A stretch of 53,654 bases of DNA from contig NZ_AOMC01000142.1 in assembly GCF_000336695.1 (NCBI RefSeq), positions 23,392-77,045 of the forward strand, written 5' to 3'. Under the pieces are notes generated by a model, which saw nothing but the letters and a program-made list of their open reading frames with translations, made no database searches and was not told where the DNA came from. Source of the stretch: Halococcus morrhuae DSM 1307 (GTDB taxonomy: Archaea; Halobacteriota; Halobacteria; Halobacteriales; Halococcaceae). A program made the translations under genes and the position numbers. This document shows positions 28,093 through 46,476 of the stretch, in pieces. The stretch's first letter is position 1; the number at the start of each line of letters is the position of its first letter.

Positions 28093-28108
28093 ACTCCGAA
28101 CTCGCTCC

Positions 28109-29077: not shown

Positions 29078-29086
29078 GTAGCTGTT

Positions 29087-29617: not shown

Positions 29618-30685
29618 CTATTTCACCCCGTCTCTGACGAGCGTGACCGACGACGGGCAGACGTCCCGGCCGTCGTTGTCCATCGTCACGCCGAGCTCGA
29701 TCCGACCCTCGTTCTCGTCGACGTCCGTGACCTCGGCTCCGACGGAGAGTTTGTCGCCGGCATAGGCCGTTCCCTGGATCGCGATCTCGCGTTCGGCGAT
29801 CCGCCACTCCGGGCCGGCCCACTGCACCGCCACCCGATCGGCCAACCCTTGAAGCGCCATCGTGTTGAGGAAGATCGTCTCGTTGCCCCGCGAACGGGTG
29901 TACTCGGGATCGTGGTGATGACCCGAGAAGTCCCGCGTCGCGGCCGCGTTGTGAACGACCTTCGTGTACGTGACGGGGAATTCGAACCCGTCGACCCCGT
30001 CACCCGGCGAAACCTCGTCGATGTCGATCGACGCGTACGGATCGTCGGGTCCCTGTCCATCCGGCACATCGACTGCACGACGACCCTCGGCGAAGGGCGT
30101 CTCGAACGATTCCGTACGTTCCTCCTCGTCGTCGGCGCTGTAGCGGAGCATCACGTTCGACTCCTCGGCAACGAGTTCGCCACCGCCGTCGCGATAGGTC
30201 GTCTTCTCGGTGACGAAGTTACCTGTCCCGACCCGCGTCTCCTTCTCCTCGCTCACGGATTCGATCGAGGTCTGCCAGTTCAGCTGCGTGCCGACCAGCA
30301 GCGGTCGATGGATCGTGGTCTTCGACTGCGTGTTGATGATGGTGTCCTTTCCGCCCGGCAACGGTACGTCCGTCACCGAGACGTCCTCGCCGTCGGCCCC
30401 CTCGGCATCCGGCCCGGGCGTCCACTCCGGATCCATCTTCCAGGTCCAGAACAGACCTGGCGGGCTCCGGATGGCTCCCCAGTGGTTCGCCGCGAAGCGC
30501 TCGTCCCAAAAGGAGGGGTTCGCGTCCTCGATCAGTTCGGCGTAGAACTGGATCATCGAGCGGTTGACCGGCTCGGCCGCGAAGAACGTGTCTCCCGATC
30601 GGCCGACCCACTCCTGTGCCTCCTCGAACGATCCCGTCGCTACGTCGATCGCCGTGACGTCGTCGTTGCTGTTGTCTGAACTCAT
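29618..30685 (-). CDS. MaoC-like double hot-dog acyl-CoA hydratase/dehydratase
   Basis: The 355-residue protein contains two hot-dog units. The first (about residues 25-190) is a FAS1-like dehydratase domain (RSMIQFYAELIEDANPSFWDERFA). The second (about 230-350) carries DFSGHHHDPEYTRSRG, with the Asp/His pair expected of an (R)-hydratase, followed by TIFLNTMALQGL. It would add water to an enoyl-CoA, making the 3-hydroxyacyl-CoA on which the adjacent aldolase could act. It starts 15 nt after the aldolase stop, and the DUF35 gene follows after 105 nt. ChsH1/ChsH2-type hydratase is the closest functional model. Confidence 0.82.
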   Translation of the reverse strand: MSSDNSNDDVTAIDVATGSFEEAQEWVGRSGDTFFAAEPVNRSMIQFYAELIEDANPSFWDERFAANHWGAIRSPPGLFWTWKMDPEWTPGPDAEGADGEDVSVTDVPLPGGKDTIINTQSKTTIHRPLLVGTQLNWQTSIESVSEEKETRVGTGNFVTEKTTYRDGGGELVAEESNVMLRYSADDEEERTESFETPFAEGRRAVDVPDGQGPDDPYASIDIDEVSPGDGVDGFEFPVTYTKVVHNAAATRDFSGHHHDPEYTRSRGNETIFLNTMALQGLADRVAVQWAGPEWRIAEREIAIQGTAYAGDKLSVGAEVTDVDENEGRIELGVTMDNDGRDVCPSSVTLVRDGVK

Positions 30686-30700
30686 GTTTGTGCTGTGTAA

Positions 30701-31882: not shown

Positions 31883-31896
31883 ACCAACTCATCCAT

Positions 31897-31953
31897 GGTC
31901 CGAGTAATAAATCCCCCGGACGTGCCGGGAGCAGTAGGTTTAATACTCCGACC
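31897..31953. promoter_or_regulatory. Mirrored divergent promoters of the aldolase operon and the SDR gene
   Basis: GGTTTAATACTCCGACC (31937-31953, plus strand) and GATTTATTACTCGGACC (reverse strand of 31897-31913) agree at 14 of 17 positions. Each contains the TATA box about 25-30 nt before its start codon (31972 and 31882). The match extends downstream of the TATA box (TACTCSGACC), so both may be bound by one regulator. Confidence 0.55.
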
Positions 31954-31971
31954 TCGGAATTGCTGTTCGCA

Positions 31972-32748
31972 ATGGATCTCGGAATCAGCGACAAGACCGC
32001 CGTCGTCACCGGCGGCGGTGGCCGGATCGGCAGCGCCGACTGTGAGATACTCGCCGACGAAGGCGCGGACGTCTACTGTCTCGACGTCGACCTGGAGGGT
32101 GCCGAGTCGGTCGCGGCCGACCTCGACGACCTCGCCGGCAGCGTCGAACCGATCGAGTGCGATCTCACCGACCGCGATGGCGTCGCCTCGACGATCGAGG
32201 CGATCCGCGAGGAGAGCGGCGGCGTCGACATCCTCGTCAACAACGCGGCGGCGGTCGACGCACGCTCGAAGCTCGAAAACTACGACGACGATCTCTGGGA
32301 CCGCGACGTGGCGGTCAACCTCACCGGGACGTACAACGTCACCCGCGAGGTGTTCCCCGCGATGTGCGAGCGTGGCTGGGGTCGGGTCGTGAACATGACG
32401 TCGATCGCGGGCTGGCTCGGCGGGTTCGGCCAGGCCTCTTACTCGGCGACGAAATCCGCGCTCATCGGCTTCGGCAAGACGCTCGCGCTCGAAGGCGCAC
32501 AGTCGGGCGTCACCGCGAACATCGTCGCGCCGAGCCTCGCGGCGAGCGAGCTCGCCGATCTGGAGCTGGAGGAGATCGAGGCGATGGACGAGCACATGCA
32601 CCGGATCGTGGAGATGATCCCGATGCGGCGGGCCGGCCGCGAGGAAGACGTCGCGAACCTCATCGCCTACCTGTCGAGCGAGCAGGCGAACTACGTCACC
32701 GGCCAGCTCGTCGGTGTCACCGGCGGTGCGGATCTGTTCGCGTTCTAA
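31972..32748 (+). CDS. Short-chain dehydrogenase/reductase, probable 3-hydroxyacyl-CoA dehydrogenase
   Basis: The 258-residue SDR has the cofactor motif TGGGGRIGSA (about residues 14-23), DVDLEG at the end of strand 2 (NAD preference suggested by the Asp), NNAA, the catalytic Ser in NMTSIAG, and YSATK (Tyr-x3-Lys). The C terminus ends GQLVGVTGGADLFAF. It is complete. Given the divergent aldolase operon with a matching promoter, oxidation of a 3-hydroxyacyl-CoA in the same pathway is the likely role. A FabG-like reductase direction is possible. Confidence 0.85.
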   Translation: MDLGISDKTAVVTGGGGRIGSADCEILADEGADVYCLDVDLEGAESVAADLDDLAGSVEPIECDLTDRDGVASTIEAIREESGGVDILVNNAAAVDARSKLENYDDDLWDRDVAVNLTGTYNVTREVFPAMCERGWGRVVNMTSIAGWLGGFGQASYSATKSALIGFGKTLALEGAQSGVTANIVAPSLAASELADLELEEIEAMDEHMHRIVEMIPMRRAGREEDVANLIAYLSSEQANYVTGQLVGVTGGADLFAF

Positions 32749-33521
32749 GGCCAGACTACGGTACAGCGGACGATTCGATCGCGGCCGAACGCCGCGACCT
32801 CCTTTCGTTTCACGATCGTCCGATCAGCGTCGCGTGAGATGGCGCATGGGACCGGCTCGATGCGGACGAATGCCTCGATGTGTTTCGATACTTTCGAAAA
32901 TGTAGTATGGTAATCTTCCATCCCCGTTTTGTGGACTGTGCAATCCGAATTGATACTGGGACCTCGATCGTTTGGCCGGCGACTGCGAAGACATGGACGG
33001 TCCTGTCCCGGTTTGCGGCCCAGTAGCAGTACGTACGTTTTACATTCGACAATGTCGAAGTCAACTCTTCAGCGTATTCGTGGAGCATCCAGAACACCAC
33101 GTCGCAGTCGAGCACTATTCGTGATCCGCTCGATCGCGAGAACGGTATCGGCCGGGGGCTATCACAGACTGAATAACAGAAGTAACACTGTTATTCTTGG
33201 AAAGGCTGATCACTTCTGCTCGGTATGTCTTGTGTAGAACCCGGCAGCTCGAATCGGGAAACGAATGAGAGGAAGAGTGGCGTGTGGTTAGAAATGGTCG
33301 ATAATTACCAACTGATTCGACGATAACGAAATATTTCCAGTCACTAACATCGAGAATACCCCTCACGTACCGCGCTTTCTGCCTAATTTCGATACTGTCG
33401 GATTTTCTGTGTGAGACGCGAGGATGATTCGCCGGTTGGCACCGACATCGATCGAATCGTTTCGCTCACATCGCCAAAACATTCAAGCGTTCCCGAAGCG
33501 TTCGATGGAACAGCATTCCCA
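32749..33521. other. AT-rich intergenic stretch of 773 nt with no recognisable gene
   Basis: Short minus-strand open frames (32810-33115 and 33115-33366) have atypical composition with few acidic residues and no family resemblance, so I do not call them genes. The stretch holds a strong inverted repeat at 33171-33196. At 33395-33404 there is a TACTGTCGGA sequence, identical to half of the dyad upstream of the Usp gene at 23652 apart from its first base. Confidence 0.4.
33171..33196. repeat. 9-bp perfect inverted repeat
   Basis: GAATAACAG (33171-33179) and CTGTTATTC (33188-33196) flank an 8-nt loop (AAGTAACA). It lies in the intergenic stretch between the SDR and thiolase genes, 325 nt from the latter, so it is not an obvious operator for it. 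Confidence 0.5.
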
Positions 33522-34679
33522 ATGAACGATCCTGTTATCGTCGACTGCGTCAGAACGCCGTTCGGGGCTGACGGGGGCGTGTTCCGCGACACGCACCCCC
33601 AAGACCTCGCGGCCGCACCGCTGCGCGCGCTCGAAGAACGGGTCGGGTTCGATCCCGCGTCCACTGTCGACGACGCCGCGATCGGCTGTGTCACCGCCAT
33701 CGACAAGCAGGGGAGCAACATCGGCCGGCACGCGACGATGGTCGCCGGCTGGGGCGACGCGGTCCCGGGCTTCCAGCTCAACCGGATGTGCGGTTCGGGC
33801 CAGACGACACTCAATCTCGCCGCCGCGAGCGTGAAGTCGGGCTATCGAGACGTGATGATCGCCGGCGGCGTCGAGCACATGACCGACCACGCCATCGGAG
33901 ACGACGCGGGCGAACGTAGCGAGACCTACCACGAGCAGTTCCCGGTCGGCAGCCAGACCAACCAGTTCCAGGGAGCCGAACTCATCGCCGATCGCTGGGA
34001 CATCACCCGCGAGGACGTCGATTCGATCGCCCTCGACTCACAACGCCGCTGGAAGGAGGCCTGGGATGCCGGCCACTACGACAGTCAGGTGACGCCCGTC
34101 GAGACCGAACTCGATGGCGAGGACATTACTGTGGAGGTCGACGAACACCCCCGGCCGGAGACGGACAGGGAGACGCTCTCGAACCTGCCGGTAATCGCGC
34201 GGGAGGAGGGCGACGGCGTCATCCACGCGGGCAACTCCTCGGGCGTCGTCGACGGCTCGGCAGCGCTACTGGTCGCGGACCCCGACGTCGCCGACGATCG
34301 CGGCTGGGATCCGATGGCCCGCATCGTCGACACGCACATCGTCGGGGTTTCGCCCGAGACGATCCTCACTGGTCCCTTACCGGCGACCAACGAGATCCTC
34401 GCGGCGAACGACATGACCGGGGCCGATATCGACCTGTTCGAGTGCAACGAGGCGTTCGCGTCGGTCGTCGCGGCGTGGCTCCAGGACACCGACGCCGAGT
34501 GGGATCGAACCAACGTCTGGGGCGGCGCGATCGCCCACGGCCACCCGCTCGGCGCGACCGGCAGCATGCTCGTGACGAAACTCGCCCACCAGCTCCAAGA
34601 GACCGGCCAGCGCTACGGGCTCTCGACGATGTGTATCGGGCTCGGCATGGGCGTCGCCACCATCATCGAGCGCGTGTAG
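33522..34679 (+). CDS. Acetyl-CoA C-acyltransferase (classical Cys-type thiolase)
   Basis: The 385-residue thiolase keeps the classical catalytic set: Cys90 (NRMCGSG), the His in GHPLGATG and the second Cys in STMCIGLGMG, with NEAF in between. It removes acetyl-CoA (or propionyl-CoA) from 3-ketoacyl-CoA, the last step of beta-oxidation. This contrasts with the Ser-type thiolase at 7525 and the Ltp2-like protein at 30701. ATG 33522 begins the conserved NDPVIVDCVRTPFG. It converges with the ACAD operon that ends at 34786. Confidence 0.92.
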   Translation: MNDPVIVDCVRTPFGADGGVFRDTHPQDLAAAPLRALEERVGFDPASTVDDAAIGCVTAIDKQGSNIGRHATMVAGWGDAVPGFQLNRMCGSGQTTLNLAAASVKSGYRDVMIAGGVEHMTDHAIGDDAGERSETYHEQFPVGSQTNQFQGAELIADRWDITREDVDSIALDSQRRWKEAWDAGHYDSQVTPVETELDGEDITVEVDEHPRPETDRETLSNLPVIAREEGDGVIHAGNSSGVVDGSAALLVADPDVADDRGWDPMARIVDTHIVGVSPETILTGPLPATNEILAANDMTGADIDLFECNEAFASVVAAWLQDTDAEWDRTNVWGGAIAHGHPLGATGSMLVTKLAHQLQETGQRYGLSTMCIGLGMGVATIIERV

Positions 34680-34785
34680 CGCGCGATACCGGTCGAAGCC
34701 GTTGTTTTTCGGTAAATCAGGCTCGAGAGATGACGGCCAAATCAGTTCTCGATTCCGATCGAAAAGGAACGAATCGTGGTCGACG

Positions 34786-35907
34786 CTACAGCCGGATGTC
34801 GGCGATCCGTCGGCGGTGTTCCGTCGGCGAGCCAAGGAGGTTCGCCCAGGTCTTCGCCTGTTTGAGGAAGATGTGGCCGTCGTGATCCCACGTGTAGCCC
34901 GTCGCGCCGTGGTTGAAGATATCGTCCTCGAAGAGCTCGCCACAGCGCTCGGTGCAGTACCAGGTCGCCCTTGAAACGGCCTGGCGTGCGTCGTCCTCGT
35001 CGTTCGCGATCGCCCACGCCGCGTAGTAGGTGAGCGATCGCGCGGCCTCCGTGTCGAGCCACATATCGGCGATGCGGTGTTTGACCGCCTGGAACTGCCC
35101 GATCGGTTTGTCGAACTGTTCGCGCTGCTTGCCGTACTCGACCGAGCGGTCGACCGCCTCGTCGGCCCCGCCGACGAGCATCGCACACATCGAGACGTTG
35201 AGGCGGTCGATGGCGCGCTTGAGCGCGTCCCCGCCGCCGTCAACCGGGCCGAGCCGCGCGCCGGAAACCTCGACCGCGTCGAAGGTCAGTTCGTACAGCG
35301 GTCGAGTCTTGTCGAGCGTGTCGAGCTGCTCTGCCTCCGCCGCCGCGGGATCGACGAAGAACAGCGTGATGCCATCGTAACCGGTGTCCTGGCGGGTTCG
35401 GGCGGGCACGACCACCCGATCGACGCTTTCGGCGTAGGGCACGAGCGTTTTCGTCCCGTCGAGACGATAGCCGTCGTCCGTGGGTTCGGCCTCCATCCGG
35501 ATGGCCCCGGGGAGCGATTCGGTGGCGTCGTCGTAGAGCGCGACGCTCGCACGGAGATCGCCGTCGGCGATCGCCGGCAGGAACTGCTCTTTCTGTTCGT
35601 CGGTACCGAGTTCCGCGAGCAACGGAACGGTGAACCCGAGCGTCTCGGGCAGCGGTCCCGGGAGCGCGACCCGGCCGGCCTCCTCGAACAGCAGCGAGAG
35701 GTAGAGCAGATCGTCACCCAGGCCACCGTATTCGAGCGGGACGCTCAGTGCCGGATAGTCCATCTCGGCGAGACCGTCCCAGACCTCGTCGACGACGTCC
35801 TCGCCGTCCATCTGTCGGCGGGCGAGCTCGATGCCGCCTTCCGATTCGAGGTAGTCGCGCACCGATTCCTGCATCTGATTCTGTTCGTCCGAGAGCGTGA
35901 AATCCAT
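34786..35907 (-). CDS. Acyl-CoA dehydrogenase, smaller subunit of a heteromeric pair
   Basis: The 373-residue ACAD has an N-terminal helical domain (MDFTLSDEQNQMQESVRDYLE), a middle beta domain with YRLDGTKTLVPYAESVDRVVV, and a C-terminal domain with REQFDKPIGQFQAVKHRIADMW and the family's closing segment GATGYTWDHDGHIFLKQAK. It starts 3 nt after the stop of the larger ACAD gene. Paired, diverged ACAD genes of this kind form alpha2beta2 enzymes in steroid degradation (ChsE1/ChsE2). The protein is a close paralogue of the one at 42945. Confidence 0.88.
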   Translation of the reverse strand: MDFTLSDEQNQMQESVRDYLESEGGIELARRQMDGEDVVDEVWDGLAEMDYPALSVPLEYGGLGDDLLYLSLLFEEAGRVALPGPLPETLGFTVPLLAELGTDEQKEQFLPAIADGDLRASVALYDDATESLPGAIRMEAEPTDDGYRLDGTKTLVPYAESVDRVVVPARTRQDTGYDGITLFFVDPAAAEAEQLDTLDKTRPLYELTFDAVEVSGARLGPVDGGGDALKRAIDRLNVSMCAMLVGGADEAVDRSVEYGKQREQFDKPIGQFQAVKHRIADMWLDTEAARSLTYYAAWAIANDEDDARQAVSRATWYCTERCGELFEDDIFNHGATGYTWDHDGHIFLKQAKTWANLLGSPTEHRRRIADIRL

Positions 35908-35910
35908 CGT

Positions 35911-37092
35911 TTACTCCTGATCTCCCTTCGGCAGCCCGAGCACTCGTTCGCCGATGATGTTGCGCTGGATGTCCGACGTCCCACCGCCGATCCGGATCGA
36001 GATGTTCGCGAGCGAGTCCTTCGCCGCCCCGTTCGGCGAGTCGTCGCCCCAGAGCGCGGCTTTCGGCCCGCCGAGTTTCACTCTGAACCGGTGGAGATCG
36101 GCGGCGACCTCGCTGTCGTACAGTTTGCCGAACGAGGCCTCGGCACCGAGATCGCCGTTCATCTGCTTGCTCACGTTGCGGAAGTAGGTCAGCTTCGCCG
36201 CCTGAATCCGGGTGTCGAACTCGGCGAGTTTCTCGCGGATGTGTGGGTCCTCCACCAGCGGTGTGCCGCCGCGCGTCTCGTTCTTGCAGAACTCGACGAG
36301 CTCGTCGAAGCGCCGTTCGAGATCGAGCGACTGCGAGAGCGAGATCCGCTCGAAGGAGAGCTGTCGCATGGCGACCTCCCAGCCCTCGTCGACTTCGTTG
36401 AGGACGTTCTCCTTCGGGGTCGTCGCGTCGTCGAAGTAGACCTGATTGAACTCGCGCTCGTCGGTGATCTGGCGGATGCGCTCGTTCGTCACACCCTCTT
36501 GGTCCATGTCGACGATGAGAGCGGTGATGCCGTGGTGTTTCGGCCCGGAATCGTCCGTCCGGGTGAACATGTAACACCAGTCGGCCTTGTGGGCGTGCGT
36601 CGTCCAGATCTTCTGGCCGTTGATGCGGAACTGGTCGCCCTCGTCGACCGCCTTGCACTGGAGACTCGCGAGGTCGGAGCCGACGTCCGGTTCGGAGTAG
36701 CCGATACACCAGAGCTCCTCACCGTTCAGGATCTTCGGCAGGAAGCGTTCCTTCTGTTCTTCGGTGCCGAACCCCTCGATCGCCGGGCCGACGAGGTCGA
36801 CGCCGATCTCGCTGCGCTCGGGCGGCGGGTTCACACGGGCCTTCTCCTGTTGGTAGATCAACTGCTGCATCAGGCTCGCATCACGACCGCCGTACTCCTC
36901 GGGCCAGTGGATCGCCGCCCAGCCACCCTCGTGGAGTTTCCGCTGCCACTCCCGGAGGAACTGTTCGCGTTCGTCCTCGTCGTCCGGCAGGTCGCGATCG
37001 CCCTCGATCCAGCCGTCGGGGAGGTTCTCTTCGTACCACTCCCGGATCTCGCGGCGGAACGCCTCCTGCTCGTCAGTATAGTCGAAGTTCAT
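35911..37092 (-). CDS. Acyl-CoA dehydrogenase, larger subunit of a heteromeric pair
   Basis: The 393-residue ACAD has WPEEYGGRDAS, the substrate/FAD segment CIGYSEPDVGSDLASL, INGQKIWTTHAHKADW, and a C-terminal end GGGTSDIQRNIIGERVLGLPK, which matches the classical FAD-binding end of the family. FADH2 electrons would go to EtfAB. The ORF can be extended to 37365, but that would run through a polypurine/polypyrimidine tract and the promoter; ATG 37092 begins the conserved MNFDYTDEQE. It is first in the two-gene operon and divergent from the acyl-CoA ligase. Confidence 0.9.
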   Translation of the reverse strand: MNFDYTDEQEAFRREIREWYEENLPDGWIEGDRDLPDDEDEREQFLREWQRKLHEGGWAAIHWPEEYGGRDASLMQQLIYQQEKARVNPPPERSEIGVDLVGPAIEGFGTEEQKERFLPKILNGEELWCIGYSEPDVGSDLASLQCKAVDEGDQFRINGQKIWTTHAHKADWCYMFTRTDDSGPKHHGITALIVDMDQEGVTNERIRQITDEREFNQVYFDDATTPKENVLNEVDEGWEVAMRQLSFERISLSQSLDLERRFDELVEFCKNETRGGTPLVEDPHIREKLAEFDTRIQAAKLTYFRNVSKQMNGDLGAEASFGKLYDSEVAADLHRFRVKLGGPKAALWGDDSPNGAAKDSLANISIRIGGGTSDIQRNIIGERVLGLPKGDQE

Positions 37093-37105
37093 GCGTGGTT
37101 TTGCA

Positions 37106-37122
37106 ACCGTCGATACGTCGGT
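37106..37122. promoter_or_regulatory. Imperfect dyad upstream of the ACAD operon
   Basis: ACCGTCGATACGTCGGT has dyad symmetry at 12 of 17 positions (ACCGNCG...CGNCGGT). It lies 14-30 nt upstream of ATG 37092, just downstream of an ATTTATC box on the reverse strand, where a repressor of a leaderless operon would bind. No regulator is assigned. Confidence 0.4.
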
Positions 37123-37178
37123 AGTTATCTTTGATAAATGTTTTCCCTCCCACCATCGCGTTCCGATTTTCAGGTCGG

Positions 37179-37263
37179 TCTCCTCCCCCCCCCCTCTCCC
37201 CTCCTTCTCTTTCCTCCCTTTTCCTCGCCTTCTCCCCCTTCCTTCGTCCCTTTCCGCTCCCCC
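37179..37263. repeat. Polypyrimidine tract, 85 nt with three purines
   Basis: The first 48 nt (37179-37226) are pyrimidines without a break, including C10 at 37185-37194. The whole 85 nt has only three G (37227, 37246, 37256). It lies between the divergent ACAD operon and acyl-CoA ligase gene. Such tracts can form triplex or other non-B DNA under negative supercoiling. Confidence 0.9.
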
Positions 37264-37316
37264 ACAATCGCCGGCCGCGGAAAACGATAACAATCTATGG
37301 GAAAGAACTAAGACAT

Positions 37317-38999
37317 ATGGTTTCAAACGTGACGGATCGAAGGATGAAGTTTCACCAACGGACACCGCTCCGACATCTCGGGGATCTCCCGTCGATGGGG
37401 GCCGAGCGATACGGGGAGAAGACGGCGATGCATCACCAAGAAGACGAACTGAGCTACGCGGAGCTCGAAGCCACGGCCAACAGGGTCGCGAACGGGCTCG
37501 TCGACGCGGGCGTCGAACCGGGCGATCGGGTCGCCATCGCGATGGAGAACAACCTCACGTACATGCCGGTCGCGTTCGGCATCTGCAAGGTGGGGGCGGT
37601 GGCCGTACCGCTCAACGTCCAGCTGGCACACGACCGGCTCGTCTACGTGCTCGAAGACGCCGGTGTCGACGTCCTGTTCGGCTCCGAACGGCTGGGCGAG
37701 CTGGTCGCCGGGCTCAACGAGGCGCTCGATCTCGAACACGCGTTCGTCCCGGGCGGCGAAGCGGGGGGCGTCACGGACTACGACGAGTGGGTCGCGGACC
37801 GCGCCACGGAGTTCGAGACCGTCGACCGCGACTACGAGTCCGACGCCTGTTTCCAGGGCTATACGAGCGGGACCACGGGCAACCCGAAGGGCGTCCCGAT
37901 GACCCACCGCAACATCCTCACGACGCTGCAGGCGTTCGCCGAAACGCAGGCGATCGACCCGGAGGAGGACTCGATACTGCTGATCACGCCGATGTACCAC
38001 ATCATCGGGCTGATCGGCAGTACGCTGTTTACGCTGTACAGCGGGCGGTCGGTCGTGCTCCAGAATCAGGTCAGGCCGGACGTCCTGCTCGAAACGATCG
38101 ACCGCCGCGGGATCACCGACTTCACCGGCGTTCCGGCGCTGTACATCAGCATGGTGCAGGAGCTCGAAGCCAACCCCGAGCAGTACGACGTCTCCTCGAT
38201 CAAGACCCTGGGGATCGGCGCGGCACCGCTGGCAGCCGACACCCGCAACCGTATCGAGGATGGCTTCGGCGTCGCGCTCGTCGAGGGCTGGGGGATGACC
38301 GAGACCACGGCCGGCACGGCCGCATCCGCGAGGGGCGTCCAGAAGGGCGCGGGCTGTATCGGCCAGCCGATGCCGGGCGTCGAGATGAAGCTGGTCGATC
38401 CGGTGACCCGCGAGACGCGCGTCCCGCCCGAACATCTCGATCCGACCGCACCGGCCGGCCTCACCGGCTACGAACCGGATTTCGACGACGAACCGAGCTA
38501 CACGGGCGAGATCGCGATCCGCGGCCCGCCGGTCTTCGAGGGTTACTACAACCTGCCCGAGAAGAACGAGGAGGTGTTCGACGACGAGGACTGGTTCTAC
38601 ACCAAGGACATCGCGCGCGTCGACGAGGATCGCTTCCTTTGGATGGTCGACCGCAGCGACGACATGCTCGTCGTCGGCGGCGAGAACGTCTATCCCGCCG
38701 AAATCGAGGACGAACTGTTCTTCCATCCCGACGTCGAGGAGGCGGCGGTCGTCGCCGCCGATCACGAGGTGAAGGGCGAGGCACCGGTCGCCTACGTCGT
38801 CTGCGAGGAGGGGGCGACCGTCACCGAGAACGAAATCCGTCGGTTCGCCCTGGAGAACGTCGCGGCATACGCCCACCCGCGGCGAGTGTTCTTCGTCGAC
38901 GAACTCCCCAAAAGCGCGACCCAGAAGGTCCAACGGTACAAGCTCGAAGAGCGTGTCGAGTCGGAGGTCGGAACGCTCGAACCGAGCGAGGAGCTGTAA
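37317..38999 (+). CDS. Long-chain acyl-CoA ligase (AMP-forming), FadD-like
   Basis: The 560-residue ANL-superfamily enzyme has the AMP-binding P-loop YTSGTTGNPKG, the GWGMTET motif, YTKDIARVDEDRFLWMVDR and a C-terminal lysine in ATQKVQRYKLEE. It activates a carboxylic acid to its CoA thioester, the entry step for the acyl-CoA pathway encoded around it. The start ATG 37317 (MVSNVTDRRMKFHQRTPLR) was chosen because the longer frame translates the polypyrimidine tract. Length and motifs are complete. Chain length or ring specificity cannot be predicted. Confidence 0.9.
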   Translation: MVSNVTDRRMKFHQRTPLRHLGDLPSMGAERYGEKTAMHHQEDELSYAELEATANRVANGLVDAGVEPGDRVAIAMENNLTYMPVAFGICKVGAVAVPLNVQLAHDRLVYVLEDAGVDVLFGSERLGELVAGLNEALDLEHAFVPGGEAGGVTDYDEWVADRATEFETVDRDYESDACFQGYTSGTTGNPKGVPMTHRNILTTLQAFAETQAIDPEEDSILLITPMYHIIGLIGSTLFTLYSGRSVVLQNQVRPDVLLETIDRRGITDFTGVPALYISMVQELEANPEQYDVSSIKTLGIGAAPLAADTRNRIEDGFGVALVEGWGMTETTAGTAASARGVQKGAGCIGQPMPGVEMKLVDPVTRETRVPPEHLDPTAPAGLTGYEPDFDDEPSYTGEIAIRGPPVFEGYYNLPEKNEEVFDDEDWFYTKDIARVDEDRFLWMVDRSDDMLVVGGENVYPAEIEDELFFHPDVEEAAVVAADHEVKGEAPVAYVVCEEGATVTENEIRRFALENVAAYAHPRRVFFVDELPKSATQKVQRYKLEERVESEVGTLEPSEEL

Positions 39000-39202
39000 G
39001 CCAGGTCGTTCTCGTCGTCTCCGTACGATCACCTGCCGTTTGGATGTGCTGGCGTCGTCAGTATTGATGGCGCTCGCAACGATATCGTCATTCGAAGCTG
39101 TGCGTCCGAACCAGTCGCTGCCTAGTTTAGTGTCGATCGAAACCACGGATCATGATAACAGTAGGCATAAACTATATACGTAGCGGGCTGAATCGATAGG
39201 TG

Positions 39203-40663
39203 ATGCCCGAGGCTAGCTTCGAGATCCCCGACCAGAAAATCGGTCTCACCGGCGCAACGGCGCTCGCAATCGGCAATGCGATCGCAGCAACGACGTTCAT
39301 CGTCCCTGCCGAACTCCTGGCGACCGGAGTTGGTCCGAGCATGGCGCTGGCTGCCCTCCTGGTGGTGATTCCGACGGTGGTGCTGTTCGTGTTCATGCTC
39401 CAGCTCGGCGGTGCGATGCCGACGTCCGGCGGCGGCTACGTGTACAACTCCGTACTCTTGAGCCCGTTCTGGGGGTTCGCCAGACCGTGGGTTTCGCTGC
39501 CGGCGATCTGGTTCGGGTTGCCGTTCACTGCGCAGGCGTTCGCCCAGTATCTCCGCTTTTATCTCCCACTCGACGTGACGCTGGGATCGACGATCGCGTT
39601 CACGATCCCGACCGTTTCGACGGAACTGCTCGTCGGGGGTCTGATCTTCGCGTTCATGATCATCAACATCCTCGGCATTCGGGCGACGGCGCTGATCCAG
39701 TACGGACTGGTCACGATCATCATCGTCGCCTCGGCGCTGTTCGTCGGCGTTGGACTGTTCCACATCAGTCCCGGGAACTTCACGCCGGTGTTTCCGGGTG
39801 AAGCGATCGATCCCTTCGTCGCGGCCGTGATCACGCTGTTCCTCGGGATGACGGGGTTCAGTCTTCCCCTGCAACTCGGTGAGGAAATCGAGAATCCGAT
39901 ACGGAACATTCCCCGATCGATCGCGCTCAGTACGGTTATCGGAATGACGCTTCTCACGGGGCTCATCGTCGTGGCCATCGGCGTCGTTCACTGGACCGAA
40001 TGGGCGGGTGCCGAGGCGGGTATCGCGGTCGTCGCCCGGGAGTTCCTCCCGTGGTGGGGCGTGTTCCTGATCGTGGCCGCGGCGATAGTCGGCGGTCTCA
40101 CGACGGTGAACGCAGTGTTCGTGAACGTCTCCCGGATCGTCATGCGGGCGGCTCGCGACGGCGTCATCCCCAATCAGCTCGCGCACATCAACGAGCGCTG
40201 GGGGAGCCCGGATGCCGCCATTCTCGCGATGGGCATCCCGGCACTCGTCATCGTCCCGTTCGCGCCGGGGTTGCTCGAACTCGCGTTCGTGCTCTCGCTG
40301 TCCTTTCTGATGGACATGGTCTTTCTCGCGCTCGGGGCGCTCCAGCTCACCCGTCGCTTCCCCGAGCGCTACGAGAAGTCCACCTACCGCGTTCCCAAAG
40401 CGCTGCTCTACCCGCTGGTGGCCATCGGCGTCGTCATCCCCGTCGGTCTGTGGATCCTGCTGGGACTCGGGGAAGGTTCGGGGCTTATCATCGCGACCGC
40501 GGTTCCCGTCTGGCTCGGGGTGGGATACGCCGTCTATCGCTATCGTGTGTGGCGCTACGCACAACGCGGCATCGACCTCCCCGAGCGGATGCGCCACCTC
40601 CACGAACACGAAGCCGAGATGGCATCCGACTTCGACGGTACCGCCACGGCCGACGACGACTGA
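39203..40663 (+). CDS. APC-family amino acid/organocation permease
   Basis: The 486-residue membrane protein has about 12 transmembrane helices with the APC opening GLTGATALAIGNAIAATTFIVPAELLA and TSGGGYVYNSVLLSPFWGF. The cytosolic tail is acidic. A TATA box AACTATATACG (about 39169-39179) precedes ATG 39203 by 25-30 nt. The reading frame continues in frame for 43 coding-like codons after its TGA (see 40664-40795), so the annotated C terminus may be a recent truncation. Substrate is unknown. Confidence 0.87.
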   Translation: MPEASFEIPDQKIGLTGATALAIGNAIAATTFIVPAELLATGVGPSMALAALLVVIPTVVLFVFMLQLGGAMPTSGGGYVYNSVLLSPFWGFARPWVSLPAIWFGLPFTAQAFAQYLRFYLPLDVTLGSTIAFTIPTVSTELLVGGLIFAFMIINILGIRATALIQYGLVTIIIVASALFVGVGLFHISPGNFTPVFPGEAIDPFVAAVITLFLGMTGFSLPLQLGEEIENPIRNIPRSIALSTVIGMTLLTGLIVVAIGVVHWTEWAGAEAGIAVVAREFLPWWGVFLIVAAAIVGGLTTVNAVFVNVSRIVMRAARDGVIPNQLAHINERWGSPDAAILAMGIPALVIVPFAPGLLELAFVLSLSFLMDMVFLALGALQLTRRFPERYEKSTYRVPKALLYPLVAIGVVIPVGLWILLGLGEGSGLIIATAVPVWLGVGYAVYRYRVWRYAQRGIDLPERMRHLHEHEAEMASDFDGTATADDD

Positions 40664-40795
40664 CGCGATGACACGCACATCGACGACCCCTACGACAGCC
40701 ATCCGGTCGCCTCGACGACGCTGATCGAAGACATCGATGTTCCAAAATCACTGATGGGCGTCGGCGAACCGTTGCGATCGGAACGGGATGGGTAG
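40664..40795 (+). pseudogene. In-frame C-terminal extension of the APC permease beyond its TGA
   Basis: Directly after the TGA at 40661-40663 the same frame stays open for 43 codons to TAG at 40793-40795. The translation is halophile-like (DDTHIDDPYDSHPVAS, then VPKSLMGVGEPLRSERDG), and most third positions are G or C, as expected of a real coding sequence. It ends exactly where the convergent enoyl-CoA hydratase gene stops (40796). A nonsense mutation in a once longer permease is the simplest reading. Stop readthrough, or a fragment of an unrelated gene, are alternatives. Confidence 0.5.
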
Positions 40796-41596
40796 TTATT
40801 TGCCTTCGAACTCCGGTTCGCGCTGCTCGGAGAAGGCGGCCATCCCCTCGGCGAGATCGTCGGTGTCGAGGAGATGGCCGAGACTGCTCGCCTCGACTTC
40901 GAGGCCGGCGTCGATGCTTTCGGCGGCGGCGTGGATCGCACGCTTCGTGTACCGCTGGGCGATCGGCGGCCCTTCGGCGATCGACTGGGCGAAGTCGATG
41001 GCTCGCTCGTCGAACTCGTCGTCGGGGTAGATTTCGTGGACGTACTGCCATTCCTGCATCCGTTCGGCCGAAAAGCGGTCGGCGGTGAAGATGATGTATT
41101 TCGCCGTGCTCTCGCCGACGAGCTGCTGGAGGCGGGCAGAGCCACCCCAGCCAGGCAGGAGACCGAGGTTGTGTTCCGGGAGGCCGAACTCCGCGCTCTC
41201 GGACGCGACGCGCAGATCGGCACACATCGTGAGCTCCATGCCGGCTCCAAGGGCGAACCCGTCCACGGCGGCGATCACAGGAAGTGGTGATTCGCGGAAC
41301 TGTCCGAACACCGACTGGCCGTGGCGCGACGATTCGACGCCGGATCGCGTCGGATCGTCACCGCCGTCGTCCATCCCGTCGCCGACGTCCGCGCCGGCCG
41401 AGAACGCCCGTCCCTCGCCCGTGATGACGATCGCGCGAGTGCTGTCGTCGTCTTCGAGCTCCGAGAGCGCGTCGGTGAGTTCTTCGGCCATCGCGGGCGA
41501 GAAGGTGTTCATCTCCTCGGGTCGGTCCAGCACGATGTGGCCGAGCGTGTCGGATTCCCGTTCAACTCGGATCGAAGTGTAGGTGTGCTCGCTCAT
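40796..41596 (-). CDS. Enoyl-CoA hydratase/isomerase (crotonase family)
   Basis: The 266-residue protein has the crotonase signature: GRAFSAGADV for the CoA pocket, DGFALGAGMELTMCADLRVAS and FGLPEHNLGLLPGWGGSARL. Both catalytic glutamates are present (in GMEL and LPEH). It hydrates trans-2-enoyl-CoA to (S)-3-hydroxyacyl-CoA, the classical beta-oxidation step, while the MaoC-like protein at 29618 probably gives the (R) form or handles a different substrate. It is divergent from the second ACAD pair. Confidence 0.92.
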   Translation of the reverse strand: MSEHTYTSIRVERESDTLGHIVLDRPEEMNTFSPAMAEELTDALSELEDDDSTRAIVITGEGRAFSAGADVGDGMDDGGDDPTRSGVESSRHGQSVFGQFRESPLPVIAAVDGFALGAGMELTMCADLRVASESAEFGLPEHNLGLLPGWGGSARLQQLVGESTAKYIIFTADRFSAERMQEWQYVHEIYPDDEFDERAIDFAQSIAEGPPIAQRYTKRAIHAAAESIDAGLEVEASSLGHLLDTDDLAEGMAAFSEQREPEFEGK

Positions 41597-41604
41597 GGAG
41601 TGTG

Positions 41605-41649
41605 CCAGCGTCGACTCCGGCGCTGGTTCGGCGGGGGTTCGCCCCCGCC
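41605..41649. repeat. Two adjacent strong hairpins between divergent genes
   Basis: CCAGCG-N10-CGCTGG (41605-41626) is followed after 3 nt by GGCGGGGGTTCGCCCCCGCC (41630-41649), an eight-pair perfect stem with a TTCG loop. They lie just upstream of the enoyl-CoA hydratase start (41596), about 115 nt from the ACAD start. They could sit in the hydratase leader or act as a boundary element. Confidence 0.7.
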
Positions 41650-41764
41650 CCTAATCCGTGTTTCCCTTCCACACGCCGACGGCGGCCGTGAGTCCCGCGC
41701 TTTTTCGATCACTGCACAAGGTATATGTGGAGCTGTCCCGTCCGATAGCCCGTCGAGACAGACA

Positions 41765-42943
41765 ATGGATTTCGAGTACACCGAGGACCAAGAACGGTTC
41801 CGGCAGGAGCTCCGCGAGTGGCTCCGCGAGAACCTGCCGGACGGGTGGCAAGCGGGTGAACGCCCGGGAACGGACGATCCCGAAGAGAACGTCGAGTTCC
41901 TGCTGGACTGGCAGCGGACGCTCAACGACGGTGGCTGGGCGGGGCTCCACTGGCCCGAGGAGTACGGGGGTGCGGACGCCTCGCTGCTTGAACAGGTCAT
42001 CTACAATCAGGAGACGGCGCGCGTCGACGCGCCGGCACGCATCAACGCCGTCGGCATCGACTTCGTCGGCCCGACGCTGATGGAGCTCGGCACCGACGAG
42101 CAGAAAGAGCGGTTCCTGCCGAAGATCATCAGCGGCGAGGAACTCTGGTGTCAGGGCTACTCGGAGCCGGATGCCGGTTCCGATCTCGCGAGTCTCTCGC
42201 TGTCGGCCGAACGGAACGGTGACGAGTTCCTGCTCAACGGGCAGAAGGTCTGGACGAGCTACGCGCACGTCGCCGACTGGTGTTTCTTGCTGACCCGGAC
42301 GGACGATTCCGGCCCGAAACACCACGGCATCACCGTCTTCCTGGTCGATATGGACCAGGAGGGCATCCAGACCGAGCCGATCCACCAGATCACCGACGAG
42401 ACGGATTTCAACGAGGTGTTCTTCGACGACGCCGTGGCGCGCGAAGAGCACATCGTCGGCGAGATCGACGAGGGCTGGGAGGTCGCGATGACGCTCTCGG
42501 CGTTCGAGCACAGCATGTCGGACGTGTTCTCGATCGAACAGCGCTGGCGCTCGCTCGTCGAGTTCTGTCAGGAGCACGAACGCGACGGCACACCGCTCGC
42601 CGAGCACACCCACGTGCGCCGGGAACTCGCCCGGCTCCACACTCGCATTCAGGCGGGCAAGCTCACCCACTACCGGAACGTGAGCAAGCAGATGGAGACC
42701 GGTGTGCCCGGTCCGGAGGGGTCGATGGACAAGGTGTTCAACAACCAGACCGAGAAGAAGTTGGAGAACTTCGCGCGGCGGTTGCTCGGGGCGAACAACG
42801 CTCTCTGGACCGACGGACCGGACGACGGCCAGTGGGTGACGGACCTGCTGATGCCCTACGGGAAGATGATCGCCGGCGGGACGAAGGACGTCCAGCGAAA
42901 CATCATCGCCGAGCGCGTGCTCGGGCTGCCGAAGGACGACTGA
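41765..42943 (+). CDS. Acyl-CoA dehydrogenase, larger subunit of the second pair
   Basis: The 392-residue ACAD is a paralogue of the protein at 35911, sharing HWPEEYGGADASL, GYSEPDAGSDLASL, RTDDSGPKHHGIT and GGTKDVQRNIIAERVLGLPK. The full ACAD domain order is present. A TATA-like GGTATATG box (about 41721) lies some 40 nt upstream of ATG 41765. It is followed by the smaller subunit after 1 nt. Presence of two complete pairs suggests successive oxidation of two different acyl-CoA substrates. Confidence 0.9.
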   Translation: MDFEYTEDQERFRQELREWLRENLPDGWQAGERPGTDDPEENVEFLLDWQRTLNDGGWAGLHWPEEYGGADASLLEQVIYNQETARVDAPARINAVGIDFVGPTLMELGTDEQKERFLPKIISGEELWCQGYSEPDAGSDLASLSLSAERNGDEFLLNGQKVWTSYAHVADWCFLLTRTDDSGPKHHGITVFLVDMDQEGIQTEPIHQITDETDFNEVFFDDAVAREEHIVGEIDEGWEVAMTLSAFEHSMSDVFSIEQRWRSLVEFCQEHERDGTPLAEHTHVRRELARLHTRIQAGKLTHYRNVSKQMETGVPGPEGSMDKVFNNQTEKKLENFARRLLGANNALWTDGPDDGQWVTDLLMPYGKMIAGGTKDVQRNIIAERVLGLPKDD

Positions 42944-42944
42944 T

Positions 42945-44072
42945 ATGGACTTCAGAATCAACGACGAACAACGACAGATGCGCGAGACGGCACAGGAGTT
43001 CTTCGAGGATCGGGAAGTCCTCGAACGCGCGCGGGAACGGATCGACGGTGAGGACGTCGTCGACGACCTCTGGGACGATCTGTCCGAGATGGACTACCCG
43101 GCGCTGACGGTGCCGCTCGAACACGGTGGACTGGGCGACGACGTGCTCTACCTCTCGCTGTTGCTCGAAGAGGCCGGCCGGGTCGCGCTGCCAGCCCCGC
43201 TGCCCGAGACGCTCGCGTTCGGCGCGTTCGTGCTCGACGAACTCGGATCGGATGCACAGAAGGAGCAGTTCCTGCCGGCGATCGCCGATGGTGACCAACG
43301 GTTGAGCTTCGCGCTCTACGAGTCCGGTCAGGAGTCGCTGCCGCGCGACATCCAGCTCGCCGCCACACCGACCGACGACGGCTATCGCCTCGACGGGACG
43401 AAGACCCTCGTGCCGTTCGGCGAGCAGGTCGATACGATCGTCGTCGCCGCGCGGACGGGCTCCGGCACCGGGATGGACGGCGTGAGCCTGTTTCTGGTGG
43501 ATGCCGAGCGCGTCGACAGCGAACCGCAGGACACCCTCGATCGGACGCGCCCGGCGGCGAAACTCCACTTCGACGACTTCGAGATCGGCGAGAACGCGCT
43601 GCTCGGGACTGAAGGCGAAGCCGGGCCGACCCTCCAGAAAGCGATGGATCGTTACACCGTCGCCACCTGTGCGATGACCGTCGGCGCAGCGAGCCGCGCC
43701 GTGGAGATGTCGTCCGACTACGGCAGCCAGCGCGAGCAGTTCGACAAACCGATCGGACAGTTCCAGGCGGTCAAACACCGCATCGCCGATATGTGGATGG
43801 CCACGCAGGCCGCGCGATCGCTCACCTACTACGCGGCGTGGGCGCTCGAAAACGACGAGCCGGATGCCGCACGTGCGGTCTCGGAGGCCAAACTGTTCTG
43901 TTCGGAGCAGCTCACGCAGGTCTTCGCCGACGACATCCACAACCACGGCGGGATGGGCTTTACCTCGGAACACGACGGTCACATCTACTTCAAGCAGGCG
44001 AAGGCGTGGGAGACGTTCCTCGGCACGCCGACCGAGCATCTCGACCGGATCGCCGACAGCCACGAACTGTAG
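42945..44072 (+). CDS. Acyl-CoA dehydrogenase, smaller subunit of the second pair
   Basis: The 375-residue protein parallels the one at 34786 (MDFRINDEQRQMRETAQEFFED; REQFDKPIGQFQAVKHRIADMW; HGGMGFTSEHDGHIYFKQAK). It starts 1 nt after the larger subunit, keeping the same large-then-small order as the first pair. It would form an alpha2beta2 enzyme with its partner and pass electrons to ETF. Confidence 0.88.
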   Translation: MDFRINDEQRQMRETAQEFFEDREVLERARERIDGEDVVDDLWDDLSEMDYPALTVPLEHGGLGDDVLYLSLLLEEAGRVALPAPLPETLAFGAFVLDELGSDAQKEQFLPAIADGDQRLSFALYESGQESLPRDIQLAATPTDDGYRLDGTKTLVPFGEQVDTIVVAARTGSGTGMDGVSLFLVDAERVDSEPQDTLDRTRPAAKLHFDDFEIGENALLGTEGEAGPTLQKAMDRYTVATCAMTVGAASRAVEMSSDYGSQREQFDKPIGQFQAVKHRIADMWMATQAARSLTYYAAWALENDEPDAARAVSEAKLFCSEQLTQVFADDIHNHGGMGFTSEHDGHIYFKQAKAWETFLGTPTEHLDRIADSHEL

Positions 44073-44149: not shown

Positions 44150-45068
44150 TCACTCGGTCGCCGCGGGGAACGGTTCGCCGCCCATCACCGTCCCCCAGAC
44201 CGGGACGTCCCTGAGCGCCGCCGGATCGACGGCGGTCGGATCGTCTTCGAGCACGGCGAAGTCGGCCCGCTTGCCGGCCTCGATGGTGCCGACCTCGTCG
44301 TCCATCCCGAGCAAGTAGGCGGCGTCGACAGTGATGGTTCTGAGTGCTTCGTCGACCGAGATGCGCTCGTCCTCGCCGAGCACGCGATCGCTGGCGGTGA
44401 CGCGGTTGACGGCGCTCCAGGCCGTGTGTAGCGGCGCAAGCGGCGTGACCGGCGCGTCCGAGTGGACACTGAAGGGGACGCCGGCGCGCTTGGCGCTCGC
44501 GCAGGCGTTCATCCGCTCGGCGCGCTCCGGGCCGACTGTCACCTCGTAGTGTTGGTCGCCGTAGTAGTAGAGGTGATTGCTGAAGAGGTTGACACAGAGG
44601 CCGAGCGCCGCCATCCGGCGGTACTGGTCGGCCGTGGCCAGCTGGCAGTGCTGGACGGTGTGACGGTGATCGAACCGCGGCGACTCGCGTTGGAGCAGCT
44701 CAACGGCGTCGACGAACAGCCCGCTGGCCTCGTCGCCGTTGCAGTGACAGTCGATCGAGCACGTCGGCGACGCTCCGACAGCCCGGCCAGTGCGTCCCGT
44801 CCGGGCTGTCGCGGCCGTAGTAGCCGAGGTAGGGGTACGACCAGAGCGCGCCGGCCATCGAGTGGGCGTGGGCCTCGACGAAGCCCGGCAGCAACACGTG
44901 GTCCGCGAAGCGCTCGTCGATCGTGGCGTTCCCCCAGCCCTCGAGCTCCGCGACGCTGCCGACGCCGAGCACGCGACCGTCGCGGACGGCGACGGCGCTC
45001 GCTTCCGGTCGGCTCGGATTCATCGTGACGATTCGATCGGCGACGTAGATCGTGGTTTCTTCGGACAT
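44150..45068 (-). pseudogene. YtcJ-like amidohydrolase, internally deleted and frameshifted
   Basis: The N-terminal part (45068 to about 44750) reads a typical start, MSEETTIYVADRIVTMNPSR, and the metal-binding GFVEAHAHS. The C-terminal part (about 44755 to 44150, other frame) has IDCHCNGDEASGLFVDAVELL, HRHTVQHCQL, SDAPVTPLAPL and GTIEAGKRADFAVLEDDP. Full-length relatives are about 540 residues; here only about 305 codons remain. Roughly 230 codons between DVLDRL and IDCHCNGD are missing, and the join is out of frame. It is therefore a pseudogene. It would have hydrolysed an amide substrate, perhaps one imported by the APC permease upstream (10 nt away). Confidence 0.87.
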
Positions 45069-45078: not shown

Positions 45079-46476
45079 TCAGTCGGAGCGATTTATTTGT
45101 TCGCCTCCGTCGCTCTGCACGGTGCGAAAGCCGACGCCGGAGCTCATGAGGCGGCTGCTGTCGCCGACCTGCCACCATCGAAGACCGTAGACGAGAACGC
45201 TGACCGCGACGAGGCCGAGATACGCGACGAACGCCTGTGGCTGCGTGACGACGAGAAAGACAGTCATGACGGCCAGGATGACGAACAGCCCCAGCGCTGA
45301 CCAGCGGACGACGCGCGGGCGGAGCAGGCGTGAGTTCGCCACGCTCTCGGCGTCAAAGATGCCGGGGAACGTCGACGGGAGCCGAAAGCCGACGATCGAG
45401 TGGATCATGAGAGGGACGACGAACAGGAAGGAGAAACTGGCCGCCAGCGCACCGAAGGAGACGTCGACGAACGTGAGTGCCACCGACAGCACGTAGAGAA
45501 AGAGAAGGAAGTAGACGGGTTCGCCGTGATCGTTCTCGCGGCCGACCCACTCGGGGAAGAGGTTGTCGTCGACGAGCACCGAGAAGATCCGGGTGAAGAC
45601 GGCGACCGAGGCGATGTTCGTCGTGAACCCCGCGACGAGCGCACCGATGCCGGTCACGACGACGAGATTGCCCGAGAGATACTGACCGACGACGAACCCG
45701 AGCGTCTGGCCTTCGAGCTGTGCGTACGAGACGACGCCGACGGCGACGAACAACACGACCGTCGAGATGAGGATGTCGACGATGGCGCTCGTGACGATGA
45801 TGCCGCCGATCGTGTTCTCGACGTCCTCGATCTCCTCGCCGAAGTTGATGATCTTGATCGCGCCACCGCCCAGGGTGAGGAGGACCGCGTACGCCGGGAG
45901 CGCGCCGATGAACCCTTCCGGCATGACTGGCGTCAGATTCCCCATCTCGACGTTGAGTAGCCCGCCACCGACGATCACGCCGATCGACAGCAACAAGACC
46001 GCATCGAGCACGATCTCGGCCACGCCGGTCGCGCGGATGCCGAACCAGACCACCGCGAACGAGATCGTCAGCAGGAGCACGGTGAACAGTTCGGTCGAGA
46101 TCGTGGGCACGATCGCGTTGAGAAAGGACGCACCGCCGAGCAGCATGTATCGCAGATAGATCAGCCCGCCGAGCATGAGCCCCGAAAAGGAGATCGTGAA
46201 GCCGACGAGCTTGCTCAGATTCTTGCGTTCCGGGAGCAACATTCTCGTCGTGTAGTAGTAGCTGCCGGCCGTCTTCGGCCACGCCTTCGTCAGCGTGAGA
46301 TACGTCGGGAGCGCAAGGAAGGTCGGAACAGCCACCAGCATCATGATGAGCACGGTGATCGGACCGCCCATCGCCCCCGCGATCACCGGGGTAGCCCACA
46401 GTCCGCCACCGACGCTACTTCCGATGGCGATGGCGACCCCGCCGACGAAGCCGATCTTCGCGTTCTCCGAGACCAT
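45079..46476 (-). CDS. APC-superfamily permease
   Basis: The 465-residue membrane protein has about 12 helices, beginning KIGFVGGVAIAIGSSVGGGLWATPVIAGAMGGP, with the glycine-rich first helix typical of APC transporters. KTAGSYYYTTRMLLPERKNL follows helix 2. The tail is cytosolic. It is only distantly similar to the permease at 39203. It lies 10 nt upstream of the broken amidohydrolase gene, so the two probably formed an uptake-and-hydrolysis unit that has lost its enzyme. Substrate is unknown. Confidence 0.85.
   Translation of the reverse strand: MVSENAKIGFVGGVAIAIGSSVGGGLWATPVIAGAMGGPITVLIMMLVAVPTFLALPTYLTLTKAWPKTAGSYYYTTRMLLPERKNLSKLVGFTISFSGLMLGGLIYLRYMLLGGASFLNAIVPTISTELFTVLLLTISFAVVWFGIRATGVAEIVLDAVLLLSIGVIVGGGLLNVEMGNLTPVMPEGFIGALPAYAVLLTLGGGAIKIINFGEEIEDVENTIGGIIVTSAIVDILISTVVLFVAVGVVSYAQLEGQTLGFVVGQYLSGNLVVVTGIGALVAGFTTNIASVAVFTRIFSVLVDDNLFPEWVGRENDHGEPVYFLLFLYVLSVALTFVDVSFGALAASFSFLFVVPLMIHSIVGFRLPSTFPGIFDAESVANSRLLRPRVVRWSALGLFVILAVMTVFLVVTQPQAFVAYLGLVAVSVLVYGLRWWQVGDSSRLMSSGVGFRTVQSDGGEQINRSD

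Follow-up and report, generated by a model that had tools for sequence, protein, structure and literature searches.

The DNA examined here, a 53,654-nucleotide stretch of the Halococcus morrhuae DSM 1307 genome (contig NZ_AOMC01000142.1, positions 23,392 to 77,045 of the forward strand; hereafter the window, whose numbering is used throughout), encodes two pairs of acyl-CoA dehydrogenases (ACADs), each made up of a large (L) and a small (S) subunit, together with an operon for an Ltp2-type aldolase, a MaoC-type hydratase and a DUF35 protein. These and the genes around them constitute a genuine catabolic island in Halococcus, one that is intact and specialised. The stretch from 25239 to 44072 (perhaps to 46476) is probably a clade-specific island of the Halococcus thailandensis group, and, judging from the predicted proteins, it fairly likely acts as a side-chain module that shortens an activated carboxylic acid by two kinds of cycle: the ACADs, a ligase, a crotonase, a short-chain dehydrogenase/reductase (SDR), a thiolase, the aldolase operon and a second electron transfer flavoprotein (ETF) would together cover a single thiolytic and a single retro-aldol cycle. 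The genes assigned to the module are as follows.

25239-26210, minus: etfA
26207-26998, minus: etfB, second copy, 97% identical to another copy in the genome
29087-29512, minus: stand-alone DUF35 protein (zf-ChsH2 and OB_ChsH2_C domains); best PDB match ChsH2(DUF35) of the Ltp2 complex, 6ok1_B
29618-30685, minus: MaoC2, an inert ChsH2-like half (without the catalytic His) fused to a ChsH1-like half with the Asp/His dyad; residue roles after PMC11321319 (in excerpt)
30701-31882, minus: Ltp2-type retro-aldolase, Y295 (YENF) and Y346 (SEAY) corresponding to TcLtp2 Y294 and Y344; alignment, residue roles after PMC12329534 (in excerpt)
31972-32748, plus: SDR, probable 3-hydroxyacyl-CoA dehydrogenase; Pfam
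33522-34679, plus: thiolase with both Cys motifs (MCGSG, MCIGLGMG); NCBIfam, motifs
34786-35907, minus: S1, small ACAD subunit without the catalytic Glu, RxxFxxPxGxFQ and HGxxG kept; best PDB match 6wy8_A (Tcur3481), motif alignment
35911-37092, minus: L1, large ACAD subunit with catalytic Glu E248 (the position of ChsE4 E247); Pfam, best PDB match 4x28_A, motif alignment, tree
37344-38999, plus: FadD-like acyl-CoA ligase (open reading frame opens at 37131); Pfam AMP-binding, NCBIfam PRK06187 at 442 bits against a cutoff of 476
40796-41596, minus: crotonase-type enoyl-CoA hydratase; Pfam, best NCBIfam model EchA19 with a score under the cutoff
41765-42943, plus: L2, large ACAD subunit with catalytic Glu E248; best PDB match 6wy9_A/6wy8_B (Tcur3483), motif alignment
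42945-44072, plus: S2, small ACAD subunit without the catalytic Glu; Pfam, motif alignment, 62% identical to S1

A preliminary description of the window had proposed two large/small ACAD pairs in the same internal order on opposite strands, with a ligase and a crotonase between them and an SDR, a thiolase, an Ltp2-like operon and etfAB nearby, and the Pfam domains, coordinates and identities bear this out; the bounds given there, 34786 and 44072, coincide with the ends of the S1 and S2 genes. The large-subunit gene comes first in both pairs, the spacing is 3 bp for L1-S1 and 1 bp for L2-S2, and the identity between the pairs is 57% for L1/L2 and 62% for S1/S2. The CoA ligase and the crotonase lie between the pairs, as does an amino acid permease that the preliminary description had not mentioned; to their left (25239-34679) are the thiolase, the SDR, the aldolase/MaoC/DUF35 operon, which is truly ChsH/Ltp2-like by sequence, an MBL-fold hydrolase, an IclR-family regulator and etfAB.

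Systems that combine a heteromeric ACAD with ChsH and Ltp2 proteins are known from steroid-degrading bacteria (PMC8399759, in excerpt), and no publication describing such a cluster in haloarchaea or other archaea was found, as judged by titles and abstract openings of the open-licence literature. An intact Halococcus set would show that this ACAD/ChsH/Ltp2 chemistry extends to another domain of life and need not be tied to steroids, would yield salt-stable retro-aldolases, and would make the use of branched or cyclic acids by halophiles testable.

Motifs and ancestry of the ACAD pairs

All four ACADs contain the N- and C-terminal Pfam domains of the family, and the middle domain scores above its cutoff in L1 and L2 but falls short of it in S1 and S2. 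The motifs were compared across 96 aligned ACADs, among them 13 large and 13 small haloarchaeal subunits. Every haloarchaeal L sequence (13/13) has Glu in the column of ChsE4 E247 and Gly or Ala in place of the Glu of ordinary ACADs (YEGT), and these proteins retain the SEPxxG flavin motif and have lost RxxFG..FQ and HGGxG. The haloarchaeal S sequences are complementary, i.e., RxxFxxPxGxFQ and HGxxG are retained, SEPxxG is gone, and none of the 13 has Glu at either the ChsE4 E247 column or the ordinary site. The large-subunit pattern recurs in ChsE4 and Tcur3483 and the main small-subunit features in Tcur3481; some bacterial small subunits in the alignment still have EP at the position of the first motif. 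Because the catalytic Glu and the motifs of the flavin adenine dinucleotide (FAD) site are divided between the subunits, L1/S1 and L2/S2 are of the heteromeric type, and the same motif split led us to reject duplicate ACADs that serve fatty acids only. A single catalytic Glu per heterodimer and an FAD site at the interface are the marks of alpha2beta2 ACADs (PMC8399759, in excerpt). We infer from the complementary motifs that the pairs are obligate heteromers, in which neither subunit could form a full site alone: each pair, L1-S1 or L2-S2, would make up a single enzyme whose subunits jointly provide the flavin site and the catalytic Glu, and the two enzymes probably act on different intermediates.

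The phylogeny of the ACADs was reconstructed by a quick method with support from SH-aLRT (Shimodaira-Hasegawa-like approximate likelihood ratio test) alone, using 80 rows of the alignment (the other 16 of the 96, i.e., the rows from genomes G134 and G157 together with ordinary ACADs encoded at other loci, were omitted). Large-type and small-type subunits form two supported clades, separate from the ordinary ACADs, which include six from the window's own genome that are encoded away from the cluster; the four window proteins thus stand apart from ordinary ACADs and do not group with straight-chain fatty acyl-CoA dehydrogenases. Since all 11 haloarchaeal L rows form one clade and all 11 haloarchaeal S rows another, the two Halococcus pairs are paralogues within haloarchaea, and the existence of a single haloarchaeal clade per subunit type led us to reject the possibility that one pair is orthologous to ChsE1/2 and the other to ChsE4/5. 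L2 groups with the other haloarchaeal pairs (support 98), whereas among small subunits S1 does so instead (88), a crossed pattern that could reflect either partner swapping or weak signal.

The preliminary description had also taken paired ACADs of this kind as characteristic of steroid side-chain oxidation. Their heteromeric type stands by motifs, tree and PDB matches (4x28_A, 6wy8/6wy9), but it is not specific to steroids. In this tree, ChsE4 pairs with Tcur3483, both fall outside the clade that unites the haloarchaeal rows with Bradyrhizobium PimC and others, and no specific grouping of the Halococcus ACADs with steroid-active members was found; L1 is 37.7% identical to bona fide Bradyrhizobium PimC, 33.2% to ChsE4 and 31.9% to Tcur3483. 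The Halococcus pairs resemble ChsE4-ChsE5 of M. tuberculosis and Tcur3481-Tcur3483 of Thermomonospora curvata in having adjoining subunit genes, Glu in one subunit, a complementary loss of FAD-site motifs and a place in the same two clades, but at 32-33% identity they form their own haloarchaeal clade, no closer to the steroid enzymes than to PimCD.

This proximity raises the question of whether the pairs belong to an ordinary or dicarboxylic fatty acid pathway whose genes ended up beside an unrelated aldolase operon by chance. PimC/PimD, the pimeloyl-CoA dehydrogenase, is likewise a heteromer of large and small ACADs from the same clades, and its subunits rank first among the NCBIfam matches of L1, L2 and S2 and second among those of S1. 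However, the Halococcus scores are far under the cutoffs of these models (TIGR03204/TIGR03203: 265 and 250 bits against 624; 127 and 162 against 653), which Bradyrhizobium PimC clears with 890 bits against 624. The pim operons are not known to include an Ltp2/ChsH module. In a survey of 391 Halobacteria genomes (E <=1e-50, with up to four candidates scored per genome), the large subunit was present in 8 genomes, representing 5 of 86 genera; five of these eight genomes lie outside the cluster-bearing group (one with two separate loci) and, like a Halomarina plasmid, contain L-S pairs without an Ltp2 match at the threshold used (E <=1e-70), as such a pathway would allow. By contrast, Ltp2 (3/391 Halobacteria), MaoC2 (3/10 Halococcus; E <=1e-20) and L1 (3/18 genomes of the family; E <=1e-60) occur in the identical three genomes, i.e., G000 (the window's own; 2.99 Mb in 167 contigs, about 95% complete), G003 and G009 (H. 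thailandensis), and DUF35 and the extra ETF are found in the same three Halococcus genomes. A chance neighbourhood of this kind is, in our view, quite unlikely.

Relatives of the large subunit outside haloarchaea, gathered by means of two peptide patterns and hence limited to sequences with one of these, come from Binatia (46% identity), Chloroflexota, Bradyrhizobium, Marinobacter and others. Near an L-type ACAD, for which tblastn returned no S partner, two Candidatus Binatia loci (L024, L027) encode a Sal-like aldolase with YDCY and Gln. On a Sphingopyxis macrogoltabida plasmid (L124), two L-S ACAD pairs are accompanied by ligases, MaoC and SDRs, an independent instance of doubled heteromeric ACADs.

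The aldolase operon and a proposed reaction sequence

The aldolase is 44% identical to TcLtp2, both of whose catalytic Tyr residues are matched. The column of the thiolase nucleophile is occupied by Gly, with a Cys directly after it, in a part of the alignment that is ambiguous. YENF and the second Tyr do not fit an aldolase of the Sal type, which has YDCY with Cys as the acid and Gln in place of Y344 (PMC12329534, in excerpt). As in the Ltp2-ChsH2(DUF35) retro-aldolase, the protein belongs to the thiolase fold family and its gene adjoins one for DUF35, which scores 111 bits against ChsH2(DUF35) and 58 bits against the partner of archaeal acetoacetyl-CoA thiolase. It differs from that enzyme in having YENF rather than YDHF, in that DUF35 is not fused to MaoC, and in that its nearest plasmid-borne relatives lie in Paraburkholderia (49%) and Simplicispira (46%) and not among the steroid-type enzymes.

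MaoC2 is a double hotdog protein whose N-terminal half matches the inert MaoC domain of ChsH2 and whose C-terminal half matches ChsH1 (chain names are interchanged between PDB entries 4w78 and 4wnb, and the short chain was treated as ChsH1). The Asp/His dyad is present solely in the C-terminal half (DFSGHHHD), and the N-terminal half reads DANPSF where ChsH2 has DRNPIY. It therefore shares with the ChsH1-ChsH2 heteromeric hydratase the combination of one inert and one dyad-bearing MaoC half, but DUF35 is a gene of its own instead of being fused to the ChsH2-like domain. Because a Comamonas TA441 mutant in which MaoC and DUF35 were expressed separately kept both activities (PMC12502768, in excerpt), the split is no obstacle.

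The order of the reactions and the allocation of the ACAD pairs to cycles, as we infer them from these assignments, would be as follows. The ligase would convert the acid to its CoA ester. In the first cycle, one L/S heteromer would form the enoyl-CoA, which the crotonase, SDR and thiolase would process in turn. In the second, the other heteromer would act on intermediates with a fully substituted beta carbon, MaoC2 would hydrate the product to a tertiary beta-hydroxyl, and Ltp2/DUF35 would cleave it by a retro-aldol reaction, yielding acetyl- or propionyl-CoA and a ketone (or an aldehyde), with the dedicated ETF receiving the electrons. An aldolase would take the place of thiolysis here because a tertiary alcohol is not oxidisable to a ketone.

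Several observations weigh against this reading of the island. The YENF motif stands where TcLtp2 has YDHF with its oxyanion His, and the nearest relative has YDAF; in TcLtp2, replacement of this His reduced efficiency 14-fold and did not abolish activity (PMC12329534, in excerpt). The match of MaoC2 to ChsH1/ChsH2 is weak (39-43 bits), and an AlphaFold model of MaoC2 alone failed (mean predicted local distance difference test score, pLDDT, of 34) and was not used. NCBIfam equivalog cutoffs are unmet for the ACADs, the crotonase and the aldolase alike. No common operator was found in six promoter regions, where 9- to 11-mers were no better shared than in 20 shuffles; 12-mers common to three of the regions arose in some shuffles too, so that a common regulon is without support. 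Finally, because they are close relatives, the three cluster-bearing genomes are not independent witnesses.

Substrate of the module

The predicted chemistry points to an acid with a fully substituted beta carbon that is attached to a ring or bears a methyl branch; bile-acid-like, terpenoid and isoprenoid compounds are examples, and the caution in the preliminary description that the substrate was unproven and possibly branched, cyclic or isoprenoid stands. The evidence supports the class of mechanism well, but not the steroid label. The bile-acid-like and isoprenoid candidates taken up next are special cases of this reading, and the further clues to the substrate are all weak.

One candidate role is the removal of the C5 or C8 side chain of bile acids or other steroids, with the rings left or handed to other enzymes. 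The module agrees part by part with the steroid side-chain set (PMC8399759 and PMC12502768, both in excerpt), and, relative to the Igr-type C3 side-chain cluster of Actinobacteria and Proteobacteria (chsE1-chsE2-chsH1-chsH2-ltp2), it has an equal set of activities. H. thailandensis was described from fish sauce (according to the title of its description), in which we consider bile acids plausible, and the amidase adjoining the ligase in its cluster could free conjugated acids. Unlike the Igr-type cluster, however, the island is archaeal, has an additional ligase, crotonase, SDR, thiolase and ETF, and is not accompanied by the ring markers: KshA_C (PF19298) was found in 0/8 genomes, and no KstD candidate was found in the window's genome, where the full-length PF00890 (FAD_binding_2) matches are three proteins that look like SdhA, NadB and GlpB. 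Full steroid catabolism was rejected on these two results (HsaC/TesB and later ring genes were not searched). The excerpted text of a hidden Markov model survey of steroid-ring genes in 8,277 bacterial, archaeal and fungal genomes likewise reports no steroid-degrading Archaea (PMC4810484). In addition, neither ACAD pair is an orthologue of ChsE1/2 or ChsE4/5, the Paraburkholderia and Simplicispira Ltp2 clusters are not annotated as steroid pathways, and the H. thailandensis amidase is a member of a broad family. The amidase, the flanking amidohydrolase and the permease give weak hints of amide-linked acids; as proof of conjugated bile acids, the amidase and amidohydrolase were rejected, being only suggestive. 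Support for the halophile steroid or bile-acid-like catabolism that had been thought possible is partial, and we regard a steroid substrate as unlikely. Because the searched steroid-ring genes were not found, some other branched or ring-bearing acid is probably degraded by the same chemistry.

Isoprenoid or other beta-methyl-branched acids (phytanate-like or terpene acids) would meet this description: a hydroxyl would be placed onto the methyl-bearing carbon, and the Ltp2/DUF35 cut would release acetyl-CoA and a methyl ketone, bypassing alpha-oxidation or carboxylation. In brines, the lipids of archaea are an obvious source of carbon. A beta-methyl acid would give a tertiary alcohol unfit for thiolysis, which an aldolase solves, as has been argued for steroids (PMC8399759, in excerpt). 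One of the nearest MaoC2 relatives, from Mycolicibacterium chubuense, is encoded beside an AtuA-type acyclic terpene gene, but it is only ~33-36% identical. Moreover, the presence of the module in 3/391 Halobacteria is patchy given so common a substrate, and no gene for ether-lipid cleavage or phytanol oxidation is evident in the cluster. We consider such a substrate somewhat unlikely, though less so than a steroid. The more elaborate proposal that haloarchaea possess an aldolytic route for beta-methyl-branched isoprenoid acids, in which phytanyl chains of archaeal lipids would be recycled via ChsE-like heteromers, hydration and a retro-aldol step to methyl ketone and acetyl-CoA, and to which the steroid side-chain machinery would be a cousin, is in our judgement improbable.

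Conservation of the island and neighbouring genes

The nearest named relative is H. thailandensis JCM 13552 (locus L021), with 98% identity to L1. Gene order in the cluster is identical in G003 and G009, and the ratio of nonsynonymous to synonymous divergence (dN/dS) is 0.02-0.16 in 16/16 genes tested, which denotes purifying selection; the co-location of these genes is therefore beyond chance. Synonymous divergence (dS) across the cluster is 0.14-0.31, except in etfA and etfB (0.45-0.54), and resembles that of seven flanking genes (0.12-0.31; an eighth, for an ABC ATPase, was set aside for its odd alignment and dS of 0.02-0.04). The island has thus been retained and maintained since the split of the three lineages.

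A decaying, non-functional acquisition could account for two features, namely the amidohydrolase gene flanking the island, which has an internal deletion in the window (~730 bp, by comparison with the longer G009 copy), and the frameshifted cluster etfB and etfA of the H. thailandensis assembly. All catabolic genes in the window are open, however, and with the dN/dS values given above this explanation is very improbable. G000 and G003 have a full-length second etfB, that of G009 is broken into pieces, and the other seven Halococcus have a single copy. The apparent frameshifts in H. thailandensis (etfB, G009:C173:169752-170530, and etfA) represent either decay or assembly error.

The remaining genes in and beside the island are these.

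27193-27999, plus: IclR-family regulator, candidate local regulator
28109-29077, plus: MBL-fold hydrolase, kept across cluster copies
39200-40663, plus: APC-family amino acid permease; the slot varies between strains
44150-45068, minus: decayed amidohydrolase, C-terminal part matching Pfam Amidohydro_3, internally deleted relative to relatives
45079-46476, minus: APC-family permease co-occurring with the cluster

The slot between ligase and crotonase (39000-40795) holds the APC permease in the window, an enzyme of the amidase signature family in H. thailandensis (L103:676-2124) and 172 bp in G003; accordingly, the permease at 39200-40663 has no counterpart in either cluster-bearing relative. 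The right-flank permease (45079-46476) is present in both of these relatives and in 0/3 cluster-less ones tested. The left flank is retained up to the Gfo gene (22657) in cluster-less G007, G001 and G004, and the right flank from MutS (48468) in cluster-less G007 and G001; an empty insertion site was not recovered, the flanks being on different contigs in the cluster-less genomes.

A tRNA-Ala predicted at 28234-28318, antisense within the MBL hydrolase gene, is probably a false call. The intergenic region between the crotonase and L2 genes contains a perfect 8-bp G+C hairpin (41630-41649). Elsewhere in the window, an SCP2-thiolase-like gene (7525-8682) with a DUF35 partner (8679-9074) encodes Ser or Met at both expected thiolase Cys positions (SSSGG, HDMF).

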